The position numbers and the translations under genes are program-made. Positions 4,408-8,255 of a stretch of DNA of 32,838 nucleotides are shown in pieces (the stretch's first letter is position 1; every line of letters starts with the position of its first letter). Location of the stretch: assembly GCF_012515855.1 (NCBI RefSeq), contig NZ_JAAYXO010000077.1, positions 1 through 32,838 on the forward strand, given 5' to 3'. The notes beneath the pieces were generated by a model. It did no database searches and was not told the DNA's origin. It saw nothing but the letters and a program-made list of their open reading frames with translations. This DNA comes from Gordonia sp. (in: high G+C Gram-positive bacteria) (GTDB lineage: Bacteria; Actinomycetota; Actinomycetes; Mycobacteriales; Mycobacteriaceae).

Positions 4408-6432
4408 ATGACGACGGTGGTTGGGAGCGCAGCGACGGCAGGGCTCGATCCGGAGCAGCTCGAGGCCGTGCTGGCGCCGCGGGGACCGGTCTGTGTGCTC
4501 GCCGGCGCCGGGACCGGCAAGACCCGCACCATCACCCGGCGGATCGCGCATCTCGTCGACTCCGGGCAGGTCAACCCCGGACAGGTGTTGGCGGTGACGT
4601 TCACCGCGCGCGCGGCGGCGGAGATGCGCGAGCGGCTCGCGACCCTCGGCGTCGCGGGGCCCGGCAACGTCGTCGCCGCGCAGACCTTCCACGCCGCGGC
4701 CATGCGGCAGCTTCGTTACTTCTGGCCGATGGCCTTCGGCGACATGCGATGGGAACTGCTCGACCATAAGTTCCGCATGGTGGGCCGCGTGGTCCGTGAT
4801 CTCGGGCTCGACGCCTCCGACCGCGACTTGCTGCGAGACCTCGCGTCCGAGATCGAGTGGGCGAAGTCGTCCGCGGTGGGCCCGGAGCAGTACGCCGCCG
4901 AGGCCCTGCGCGTGCACCGCGACGTGCCGACCGACCCGCAGACGGTGATGCGGGTCTTCGCGGCATACGAGGACGCGAAGGTCGCGCCCAACGGCGACCG
5001 ACTCCTGGACTTCGAAGACCTCCTGATCTACACGACGATGATCCTGCAGTCCGATCCGTCGATCGCCGAGGAGTTCCGCTCGCGGTACCGCAGTTTCGTG
5101 GTCGACGAGTACCAGGACGTCACGCCGATCCAACAGAATCTGCTGGAGGCCTGGCTCGGCGGCCGCGACGATCTCACCGTGGTCGGCGACGCCAATCAGA
5201 CCATCTACAGCTTCACCGGGGCCACCCCCTCCTATTTGCTCGACTTCACTCGCAAGTACGAGAACGCGACCCTGGTGCGGTTGCAGCGCGACTACCGCTC
5301 GACGCCCCAGGTAGTCCACCTGGCCAACGAGGCCATCGGCAAGGCACGCGGCCGGATCGCGGGCACCCGCCTCAAGCTGGTGGGGCAACGCCCCGCCGGG
5401 CCCGAACCGATCTTCGCCGGATTCGACGACGAGATCTCCGAGGTCGTCGGTGTGGTGGCCCAGATCCGCAAGCTGATCCGAGCCGGCGTCCAGCCCGCCG
5501 AGATCGCCGTGCTGTACCGCGTCAACGCCCAGTCGGAGGCATACGAAGAAGCGCTGTCCGAGGCCGGGATCGACTACCAGGTGCGCGGAGCGCAGAGCTT
5601 CTTCGAGCGGCCCGAGATCGTCGCAGCCCTGCGGCGCCTGGTGTCCCTCGCCGGTGGCCCGCCGCCGCCGATGCAACCGGTCGACGCCGTCCGCCACGCC
5701 CTGCACCAGGTCGGCCTCACCGAGTCCGAGCCGAAGGGCGCCAACGCGCGGTCGCGCTGGCAGCAGTTGCTGCGGCTGGTCGAGATCGTCGAGGCGATCG
5801 CTGCCGAAGGGCCGCAGCTCGACTTCGCCGGGGTGGTCGCGAAGCTGGAGGAGCGTTCCAAGATGCGGCACGCGCCCGTGGGCGCGGGCATCACCCTGTC
5901 GTCGATGCACGCCGCGAAGGGGCTCGAGTGGGACGCCGTCTTCCTCACCGGACTGCACGAGGGCTCGATGCCGCTCGGGCGGGCGTCGAAGTCGACCGAC
6001 GACGTCGAGGAGGAACGCCGCCTGTTCTACGTCGGCATCACCCGCGCCCGCGAGCATCTGCACTTGTCGTGGAGCCTGTCGCGAGGGGAGGGGAGGGGCG
6101 CCAAGCGTCGTCGCTCGCGTTTCCTCGAGGCCCTGGTCCCGGTGTCGAAGTCCGCGATGGACTTCGAACCGCTTCCCGAGCGCACCGAGCCCGACCCCGA
6201 CGTCCTCGCCGCGCTGACCGCCTGGCGCACCCGGTTCGCCGAGTCCGAGGGCATCATGGAGTCGAATGTGATGAGCAAGTCGATGGTCCGCGCCATCGCG
6301 ACCGCGGTGCCGACGTCGATCGAGGAGTTGGCCAAAGTCCGCGGTTTCGGCGCCGAGCGCGCCGACGTCATCGGACGGGCGATCATCGAGGTCGTCGATG
6401 CCGCACTTCCGGGTAAGAACGCAAAGACCTAA
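4408..6432 (+). CDS. uvrD2: UvrD2-like DNA helicase with HRDC domain
   Basis: A 674-aa SF1A 3'-5' helicase matching Rv3198c. It shows a Q-motif (LDPEQLEAV), Walker A AGAGTGKT (32-39), Walker B DEYQD, motif III VVGDANQTIYSF, motif V SSMHAAKGLEWD and motif VI RLFYVGITRARE. A C-terminal HRDC-like domain starts near LTAWRTRF (about 600-670) and contains the ELAKVRGFGAERADVIG core. The mycobacterial UvrD2 linker is described as carrying a CxxC-N14-CxxC tetracysteine; here the linker (about 567-600) is short and has no cysteine. ATG 4408 is chosen by alignment of the N-terminus; GGAGG lies too close (4402-4406) to be an ideal ribosome site. A long antisense frame across this gene is a GC artefact. 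Confidence 0.9.
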   Translation: MTTVVGSAATAGLDPEQLEAVLAPRGPVCVLAGAGTGKTRTITRRIAHLVDSGQVNPGQVLAVTFTARAAAEMRERLATLGVAGPGNVVAAQTFHAAAMRQLRYFWPMAFGDMRWELLDHKFRMVGRVVRDLGLDASDRDLLRDLASEIEWAKSSAVGPEQYAAEALRVHRDVPTDPQTVMRVFAAYEDAKVAPNGDRLLDFEDLLIYTTMILQSDPSIAEEFRSRYRSFVVDEYQDVTPIQQNLLEAWLGGRDDLTVVGDANQTIYSFTGATPSYLLDFTRKYENATLVRLQRDYRSTPQVVHLANEAIGKARGRIAGTRLKLVGQRPAGPEPIFAGFDDEISEVVGVVAQIRKLIRAGVQPAEIAVLYRVNAQSEAYEEALSEAGIDYQVRGAQSFFERPEIVAALRRLVSLAGGPPPPMQPVDAVRHALHQVGLTESEPKGANARSRWQQLLRLVEIVEAIAAEGPQLDFAGVVAKLEERSKMRHAPVGAGITLSSMHAAKGLEWDAVFLTGLHEGSMPLGRASKSTDDVEEERRLFYVGITRAREHLHLSWSLSRGEGRGAKRRRSRFLEALVPVSKSAMDFEPLPERTEPDPDVLAALTAWRTRFAESEGIMESNVMSKSMVRAIATAVPTSIEELAKVRGFGAERADVIGRAIIEVVDAALPGKNAKT

Positions 6433-6677
6433 CGCTGCCCAAGCTCCATTTGGACTGATCGCCGCGCGAGTAATAGCGAGGGGAGGACAGCGTATGCGTA
6501 TGCAGTCCCCTGTGATCTGTGCACACCGCGCGTATTCCACGTCGGATGGTGATACTGCGCGGACAATCAAGCAGCGATCCAACGCGGGTTCGTAAAGCTC
6601 GAGCGTTCCGTGCGTCGTGACCACACGAACGCTAGTTCTGTCGTGCCTTCTCTCGAGCTACCTGCGATACTTGGACG
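6433..6677 (+). promoter_or_regulatory. Intergenic region with leaderless-type promoter for the HEPN-like gene
   Basis: This 245-bp gap is visibly less GC-rich than its surroundings. A GATACT -10-like hexamer at 6666-6671 ends 6 bp before GTG 6678, the spacing expected for a leaderless transcript, and no Shine-Dalgarno precedes that GTG. No clear -35 was found. An imperfect hairpin (GGGGA/TCCCC arms around a GCGTATGCGTATGC repeat, about 6480-6510) could act as a terminator after uvrD2. This is pattern reading only. Confidence 0.4.
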
Positions 6678-7415
6678 GTGACCGAAAATGATGGCATCGG
6701 GTCGGCACGATCCGAGGCGGTTGCGTTTGCTCCCCTGGTGTCAGTTCGGAACTACATGGCGCCAGAGCATCTCTGGTCTGCGAGGTATGCAGCTCGGATG
6801 TGTGGCGAGATCGAGGGAAGGCTGAAGGGGACCGGCGAGCTGCACCGGCCTCACCGGTCGTACGTTATCAGCGCGGTGCTGTCGTCTGTCGCGTTCATGG
6901 AGACCTACATCAACGAGGTCCTCCAGGATCTCGCTGACTCTGAGCCCGGCGAGATCGATTCCCGCTGTGCGGGTATCGCCGAGCAATCGGCGGCGATCCT
7001 TCGAGAGATGTGGAATCCACCCGGAGAACGCATCGGTTGGCTTGAGCGAGCGAGCATCTTGGACAAGTATCGGGTTTCGCTGGCAGCATGCGGTGCGGAA
7101 CCCTTTGAGAAGGGCGCTTGGCCCTATCAAAGTGCCAAGAAGCTGATCGACTTACGGAACGCGCTCGTGCACTTCAAGCCCGAGACTCAAGTATCTGGCG
7201 AAGCACACAAACTGGAGAAGGCTCTCAAGTCTGAGTTCGCGTCGAATCAGATCTTCTCTGAACCGTTGAGTCCCTGGTACACCATCGGGTGCCTCGGGTA
7301 CGGCTGCGCTGAGTGGTCCCACACGACTGCAGCTGCGTTCATTGACGAATGGCAGGCGCGAATAGGTCTGGAGAAAGACTACAAGGACGAGATGGGGCAG
7401 TATGACTCTCCGTAG
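6678..7415 (+). CDS. HEPN-like hypothetical protein (RX4H motif)
   Basis: The gene encodes 245 aa and I do not recognise a named family. It is mainly alpha-helical, with SYVISAVLSSVAFMETYINEV (about 62-82) resembling the first helices of HEPN proteins. It also has Arg160-Asn-Ala-Leu-Val-His165, the RX4-6H motif that forms the HEPN ribonuclease active site, in the context LIDLRNALVHFKPE. HEPN proteins are commonly RNases of toxin-antitoxin, abortive infection or CRISPR systems; others are non-catalytic. GTG 6678 is chosen because it is first in frame and sits at leaderless distance from a -10-like box. Third codon positions are less GC-rich than in neighbours. The gene interrupts the uvrD2-whiB7 adjacency seen in mycobacteria, which suggests horizontal acquisition. 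The function is inference. Confidence 0.7.
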   Translation: MTENDGIGSARSEAVAFAPLVSVRNYMAPEHLWSARYAARMCGEIEGRLKGTGELHRPHRSYVISAVLSSVAFMETYINEVLQDLADSEPGEIDSRCAGIAEQSAAILREMWNPPGERIGWLERASILDKYRVSLAACGAEPFEKGAWPYQSAKKLIDLRNALVHFKPETQVSGEAHKLEKALKSEFASNQIFSEPLSPWYTIGCLGYGCAEWSHTTAAAFIDEWQARIGLEKDYKDEMGQYDSP

Positions 7416-7464
7416 AAGTAGCAGTGGGCGTCGCTGATGCTGGATTTGAGGTATGACAGACCTC

Positions 7465-7486
7465 GCTCGACGCACCATCGTCGAGC
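7465..7486 (+). terminator. Hairpin downstream of the HEPN-like gene
   Basis: GCTCGACG (7465-7472) pairs perfectly with CGTCGAGC (7479-7486) around a 6-base loop. It is preceded directly by a second short dyad, GAGGT (7448-7452) with ACCTC (7460-7464). There is no U-tract, so it would be a non-canonical actinobacterial terminator for the gene ending at 7415. The rest of 7416-7609 shows no convincing gene. Confidence 0.4.
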
Positions 7487-7609
7487 GCTGGTTCGCGAAG
7501 ACCTGTGGTGTGCGCCCTGCCGCTGGGGTTTCGCGGGTCTGCGTCGTGCGCGGCAGACTAGCGTGCATCGAGGTCCCGAGGCGAACGCCGGACCGATAAC
7601 CGCAGGTAG

Positions 7610-7646
7610 AAAATAAGTTGTGCAGGTTTCCTCGTCCGCCTAGAGT
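7610..7646 (+). promoter_or_regulatory. whiB7 promoter with WhiB7-type AT-rich activator box
   Basis: A -35 TTGTGC (7618-7623) and a -10 TAGAGT (7641-7646) are separated by exactly 17 bp. AAAAT (7610-7614) lies three bases upstream of the -35. WhiB7 is known to bind SigA and, through its AT-hook, an AT-rich element just upstream of the -35 of its own promoter; this arrangement fits autoactivation. Transcription would start near 7653, giving a leader of about 335 nt. Confidence 0.75.
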
Positions 7647-7988: not shown

Positions 7989-8255
7989 TTGACCATCTTG
8001 ACCGTCCCTCGAATAGAACTCCCGTGCCAGAGTGTCGAGAACGACGCCGACCTGTGGTTCGCCGACCAGCCGAACCTGCTGGAAGAGGCGAAGAACCTCT
8101 GCCAGGCCTGCCCGCTACAGCTTCAGTGCCTCGAGGCCGCCCTCGAGCGCGAGGAGCCGTGGGGCGTCTGGGGAGGAGAGATCCTCGACCGCGGCATCGT
8201 CATCGCACGCAAGAGGCCACGCGGGCGGCCGCGTAAGAACGCGGCGCTCGCGTGA
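7989..8255 (+). CDS. whiB7: WhiB7 transcriptional regulator
   Basis: An 88-aa WhiB-family Fe-S protein and master activator of intrinsic antibiotic resistance. From TTG 7989 the [4Fe-4S] ligands are Cys13, Cys38, Cys41 and Cys47. The SigA-binding turn EPWGVWGG is at 56-63 and the C-terminal AT-hook KRPRGRPRK at 75-83, which distinguishes WhiB7 from other Wbl proteins. TTG 7989 gives an N-terminus (MTILTVP) like that of M. tuberculosis WhiB7 (MSVLTVP) and the right length; the frame is open further upstream only into the terminator. An AGAGAAAG stretch (7971-7978) is a modest ribosome site. TTG 7998 is an alternative. It is regulated by autoactivation and leader attenuation. Confidence 0.92.
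   Translation: MTILTVPRIELPCQSVENDADLWFADQPNLLEEAKNLCQACPLQLQCLEAALEREEPWGVWGGEILDRGIVIARKRPRGRPRKNAALA

Follow-up and report, generated by a model that had tools for sequence, protein, structure and literature searches.

The window analysed here is one whole contig of 32,838 nucleotides from a 3.80-Mb draft genome of Gordonia. Its subject is a stand-alone gene of predicted HEPN type (6678–7415, forward strand; ORF call with GTG start, 245 aa), which lies behind uvrD2 (4408–6432, forward strand, 674 aa) and ahead of the antibiotic-resistance regulator gene whiB7 (7989–8255, forward strand). Both flanking genes belong to the common stock of the genus, with uvrD2 matched in 59/59 Gordonia genomes and whiB7 in 58/59 at E ≤ 1e-20. 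The class assignment rests on an AlphaFold2 model, on structure comparison by VIA-align and on residue conservation across 38 aligned homologues.

An inserted gene between uvrD2 and whiB7

The HEPN-type gene has a G + C content of 0.587 and a GC3 of 0.70, compared with 0.694 and 0.91 for uvrD2 and 0.667 and 0.84 for whiB7, and its G + C content was the lowest among 15 ORFs measured (0.657–0.714 in the others). This bears out an earlier note, made from the sequence alone, which had described a lower-GC 245-aa gene inserted between the two. The same note had proposed a leaderless start and an own hairpin. The former is plausible, as no Shine-Dalgarno sequence was seen by eye before the GTG and a GATACT lies 6 nt upstream; the promoter scan returned no site, and this proposal stays unproven. 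The hairpin is real as a structure (7464–7487, forward strand, 3' of the gene), with a perfect 9-bp stem and a 6-nt loop. It is non-canonical as a terminator, having no T run, and the terminator scan reported none.

The uvrD2–whiB7 interval measures 1559 nt in the window versus 359–416 nt in the four genomes nearest by UvrD2 (G049, G056, G051 and G013), which lack the gene, confirming the insertion. Alignment with the G049, G056 and G051 intervals, together with border comparison and interval lengths, delimited an inserted segment of approximately 1.18 kb with one gene (6422–7597, borders approximate). The extra DNA starts at the 3' end of uvrD2, the insertion border, and ends immediately before an intact conserved block in the promoter region of whiB7 (7598–7621, forward strand), which is identical to the G056 interval at 24/24 nt. 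In G056, the uvrD2 reading frame extends into this conserved block (window counterpart 6403–6432), so that an insertion there must part two overlapping features.

A survey of this interval across Gordonia, as the earlier note had suggested, found intervals longer than 1 kb in five genomes (the window genome, G004, G021, G010 and G007) among the 58 with both genes, with the HEPN-type gene in the window genome only; G041 was left out for want of a whiB7 match at the cut-off, and interval ends were extrapolated from protein matches. Inspection by eye of the four long intervals without the gene found IS-type transposase and integrase genes in the 8-kb interval of G007. The G010 interval has a large gene for a HelR/HelD-like helicase, and no gene was recognisable with confidence in those of G004 and G021.

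Three candidate marks of the insertion event were evaluated and rejected. A degenerate trace of the pre-whiB7 block behind uvrD2 in the window had a score reached by 2 of 5000 shuffles when the shared coding part was included and by 4838 of 5000 when it was left out, which is not significant. A 10-nt exact repeat (6384–6393 and 7566–7575), whose score was attained in 32 of 2000 shuffles (in 46 under softer scoring), has a spacing of 1182 nt, in agreement with the insert size; it was not counted because the general repeat scan left it unranked and the region holds other repeats of 10 to 11 nt. Lastly, uvrD2 found no support as a repeat-flanked hotspot of the ychF kind (see below), with one of 32 loci below E 1e-3, another at about 1e-3 and none below 1e-5 (G004 counted twice, window absent). 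As the weak 10-nt repeat stands alone in the window, the route of entry into this interval is one that we infer.

Predicted fold and conserved motif

The AlphaFold2 model of the window protein (27 sequences) had a pLDDT of 91.5 and a pTM of 0.87. Its main helices span residues 28–49, 57–87, 150–164 and 208–229, with a helical insert at 88–149, and R160 lies near the end of the third helix with H165 just past it. HEPN domains are described in PMC3710099 as having the motif where helix 3 ends and helices 2 and 3 separated by a variable insert; the window model follows this order, as does a model of an archaeal homologue (pLDDT 84.1), built from eight of the same 27 homologues with the window row excluded. 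VIA-align placed HEPN/HepT structures in rows 1–8 for the window model (Z 8.3–6.6 over 116–130 residues), followed by MtlR-type, Roquin and Csm6 chains and, from about Z 5.2, by clearly unrelated helical proteins. For the archaeal model, rows 1–16 were HEPN-type (Z 9.3–6.7). These rows include TT1696, ranked first for the window model, and, for the archaeal model, TT1696, HI0074 and Csm6, which we take to be HEPN-type. Structure comparison thus points to a HEPN fold in both models, with best Z values of 8.3 and 9.3 that are modest for a helical bundle, Foldseek alone giving no match at E ≤ 0.001 for either. The earlier note had named a structure without the four-helix HEPN core as evidence against its reading; the core is present in the model, and HEPN structures lead the list.

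Sequence profiles placed the protein in no named family, in keeping with the note's failure to recognise one. No curated cut-off of Pfam or NCBIfam was reached; the nearest Pfam family was PF18735 (HEPN_RiboL-PSP), with 14.1 bits against a cut-off of 28.4, and it was matched at E ≤ 1 by 8 of 27 members (best E 0.045). Among the PADLOC profiles, RTasHEPN (labelled DRT) was the sole match of the window protein at E ≤ 1, covering residues 66–165 including the motif (E 0.0016, 16.6 bits). PDB sequence searches gave weak matches to unrelated proteins only (best E 0.15 and 0.8). The viral structure library gave no significant match, a phage HEPN protein of MAE-28990 type appearing at rank 16 with E 2.2.

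The predicted active-site motif is R160-N161-A-L-V-H165 (7155–7172, forward strand), formed by the end of helix 150–164 plus the next residue, and is the sole RX4H in the 245-aa protein. R160 is conserved in 38/38 rows and H165 in 37/38, at the positions that the earlier note had given; the one row without H165 is L027, whose open frame has only 192 codons. According to PMC3710099, HEPN proteins carry an Rx4-6H motif, in which the arginine is usually followed by a polar residue (N, D or H), and a conserved acidic residue in helix 2, often as Ex3[KR]. In the 38-row alignment, the residue after R160 is N in 34 rows, H in two, D in one and S in one, so that N, H or D occurs in 37/38. The place of the helix-2 acidic residue is taken by E75 of an invariant E75-x3-N79 (6900–6914, forward strand, helix 57–87; both 38/38), the second position being N79, not K or R. 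The alignment left out L024 (broken frame), L032 (frame ending before the motif) and L011 (no start codon before the match), and it excluded L084, L087 and L096, which duplicate L013, L011 and L025; in 11 extra rows the sequence was trimmed to begin about 25 residues ahead of the match and not at a start codon.

An RX4H by itself is common, occurring in 42 of 108 control ORF products of 200–300 aa (R[NDH]x3H in 12/108). Being weak alone, the motif counts here through its conservation across the 38 homologues. For the same reason no weight attaches to the observation in the earlier note that this was the second RX4H protein in the window, as RX4H was found in 8 of the 21 other ORFs picked there. 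By motif conservation and predicted fold, the assignment of the gene product as a HEPN-fold protein, HEPN-like in the words of the note, is well supported.

Distribution, neighbours and insertion sites

Homologues were found in 5/59 Gordonia genomes, 13/401 genomes drawn from the family (one a fragment with stops) and 7/396 drawn from the phylum (two by short weak matches only), the window's own genome being included each time. The earlier note had said that presence in all relatives with normal composition would speak against its reading; the gene is sparse in its genus, and its composition is deviant. A genome contig search with a query alignment of Gordonia sequences only, which favours near relatives, yielded 29 loci, most of them actinobacterial and several from MAGs. 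They include Nocardia, Mycobacterium, Pseudonocardia, Blastococcus, Streptacidiphilus and Pseudomonas as well as a deltaproteobacterium, Anabaena, an acidobacterium, Methanocellaceae and Methanoregula. Homologues also occur in six of 72,556 plasmid records, two of them haloarchaeal, and all six are annotated as hypothetical protein. A search for a phage origin gave no match, neither among 50,697 phage records nor in a scan of viral contigs that can find close relatives only.

In the tree of the 38 rows, the window row grouped with two Gordonia and two Nocardia rows, and G. lacunae grouped with Mycobacteriaceae. Because the distribution is patchy and the tree conflicts with taxonomy, the pattern, as read from sequences, is that of a gene spread horizontally among bacteria and archaea. 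An old actinobacterial gene inherited vertically and lost in most lineages would fit the actinobacterial majority of the 29 loci, though the query alignment held Gordonia only. Against such descent stand the low counts in the genus and the family draw, neighbours that differ between Gordonia species, the conflict of the tree with taxonomy and the two empty sites given below, and we regard it as barely credible.

No neighbour family was common to more than 4 of the 29 loci, and an MNT gene as a recurrent neighbour was not seen among them, with an ORF picker that was rough and had missed ychF in L017 and L033, where tblastn later found it. Some neighbours are of defence type: Mrr adjoins the HEPN-type gene in L005 and L020 (profile match), a DUF6602/NucC-like protein lies beside it in L003 and L009, L011 has a PD-T4-5-like protein, L033 an AriA/GajA-like ATPase, and an Achromobacter plasmid an Mrr-type nuclease near the homologue. 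These were chosen neighbours that were scanned, and no enrichment is claimed. In two phyla, a second RX4H protein adjoins the HEPN-type gene (L006:7106–7903 and L028:3460–4242). These two proteins share 22% identity (E 4e-10), with no Pfam match for either; the gene was rejected as a general partner, as tblastn found relatives in L006 and L028 only among 33 loci.

Direct repeats (blastn E < 1e-5) surround the gene in 5 of 41 loci scanned (34 + 7; L017, L018, L020, L033 and L086) compared with 1 of 124 control genes. As L017 and L033 share one site, these represent four sites (Fisher p 0.004; 0.013 if the shared site counts as one); the other 36 loci, the window included, have no significant flanking repeat. 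The L017 repeat, in G. lacunae, consists of the 3' end of ychF with its stop codon, and three relatives have a single copy with the next gene directly after it. In L086, the gained unit is about 850 nt long with the HEPN gene alone; a single 30-nt copy is present in the relative G385 (L143), where it forms the final codons of an ORF on the opposite strand. At these two sites with an empty-site comparison, the HEPN-type gene has been inserted alone between direct repeats of the 3' end of a neighbouring gene. The L020 repeat overlaps the mrr stop codon (by eye), and an empty site for it was not found in Gordonia. The gene also lies behind ychF, with diverged repeat copies, in L030 and L033, which belong to two other genera.

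Copies of the ychF 3' end bracket other genes as well. Among the 30 best of 59 ychF matches in Gordonia, it recurs about 600–1440 nt downstream at seven loci, that of L017 being one of them, at E < 1e-3 (L112, L117, L123, L125, L127, L137 and L140) and at four at E < 1e-5, the repeats of L125, L127 and L140 being the weaker ones. Apart from the HEPN gene itself, genes between the stronger repeats match PIN and DUF1801, and those between weaker ones (E 8e-5 to 3e-4) match Fic/Doc, HigB together with an HTH protein, and TetR; the insert of L123 could not be assigned to a class. This suggests that the ychF 3' end in Gordonia is a recurrent insertion site for small cassettes. In Nocardia neocaledoniensis (L011:5925–8532), a full ychF is followed by the PD-T4-5-like gene and then by an incomplete repeat of its 3' end (91% over 323 nt), and the HEPN gene lies further downstream of this second copy.

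Proposed role and alternatives

We consider it probable, with moderate confidence, that the gene encodes a mobile single-gene HEPN endoribonuclease for abortive defence and that its position beside whiB7 is fortuitous. Two chains would bring their Rx4H motifs together (R160, N161 and H165, with E75), and the paired motifs would cut RNA without metal; the trigger would probably be phage infection or a similar stress, upon which growth of the affected cell would stop. As mobile cargo, the single gene would have moved horizontally, entering the window directly after uvrD2 and other genomes at 3' ends of host genes. Dimer, RNase activity, target, trigger and defence role are what we infer by analogy with the family: metal-independent RNase activity of HEPN proteins is described in PMC3710099, and their action as dimers in PMC13092281.

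The earlier note had left open whether a ribonuclease beside the ribosome-stress regulator whiB7 is fortuitous or functionally linked. A co-regulated partnership would be in line with the arrangement, in which the HEPN-type gene is adjacent, on the same strand and upstream of the whiB7 promoter. Yet neither WhiB7 nor UvrD2 occurs at the other homologue loci (33 loci with flanks of up to 10 kb and 20 loci with 1.5-kb flanks, one of these being the window itself), so that adjacency to whiB7 is confined to the window genome among the loci examined. The pre-whiB7 block is intact and lies behind the hairpin, and in four other Gordonia genomes the interval is long without the HEPN-type gene. A functional link thus drew no support and appears very unlikely; the position beside whiB7 is most likely fortuitous.

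The most serious competitor is a toxin of a toxin–antitoxin pair whose antitoxin is unlinked, an RNA or lost, serving addiction and not defence. In its favour, the top structure matches include HepT toxins of MNT-HEPN pairs, and the ychF-site inserts of other Gordonia carry Fic/Doc, PIN and HigB-type genes. The loci themselves speak against it: with the rough ORF picker no neighbour family exceeded 4 of 29, and the second RX4H gene has relatives in just 2 of 33. An upstream RNA antitoxin, of the kind known for AbiF, was also sought and rejected, with a fold z of -1.1, no Rfam match and only short dispersed repeats. We therefore hold a toxin of this kind to be rather unlikely. A HEPN domain without catalysis, which would instead bind nucleotides or a partner protein, has a precedent in HEPN families that lost the Rx4-6H motif (PMC3710099). 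In the present alignment, which spans several phyla and two domains of life, the motif and the acidic residue of helix 2 hardly vary, and the only row without H165 is the short frame of L027, which makes silence improbable. We thus retain the defence endoribonuclease as the preferred reading.

Among known systems, PF18735, the nearest Pfam family, is itself HEPN and is listed in PMC10952713 for the phage-defence systems PD-T4-2, PD-T4-5, PD-T7-3 and ApeA; the window protein differs in falling short of its cut-off and in matching no PADLOC profile except RTasHEPN at E ≤ 1. To RTasHEPN it is similar in residues 66–165 including the motif, at a low score of 16.6 bits. HepT of MntA-HepT (e.g., SO_3166) would share the HEPN fold, standing high in both structure lists, whereas the window protein is longer, at 245 aa versus 128–133 in the listed HepT chains, has an insert of about 60 residues between helices 2 and 3, and has no recurrent MNT neighbour that was seen. 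DS-11, a one-protein CBS-HEPN defence (PMC13092281), is likewise a single-gene HEPN system, but the window protein has no CBS match. Among the open-licence papers listed, no title or abstract beginning describes this gene.

The gene would add an unnamed HEPN family, common to bacteria and archaea, to the likely RNases of prokaryotic conflict, and the clean one-gene insertions at gene 3' ends raise a testable question, namely how lone genes for defence or toxins can move when no recombinase is visible. A more far-reaching proposal, which we put forward tentatively and as doubtful, is that this would be an undescribed HEPN family that acts alone without an antitoxin and, with no recombinase of its own, travels as a cassette of one gene by recombination at the 3' end of host genes, leaving that end on both sides, and that the ychF 3' end of Gordonia might be an integron-like trading post without an integrase for HEPN, toxin–antitoxin and other small genes. 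Minimal mobile elements and integron gene cassettes are small cargo without a recombinase of their own in a conserved slot. The insertions described here resemble them in this respect and differ in that the repeats at ychF and in L086 copy the 3' end of a host gene.
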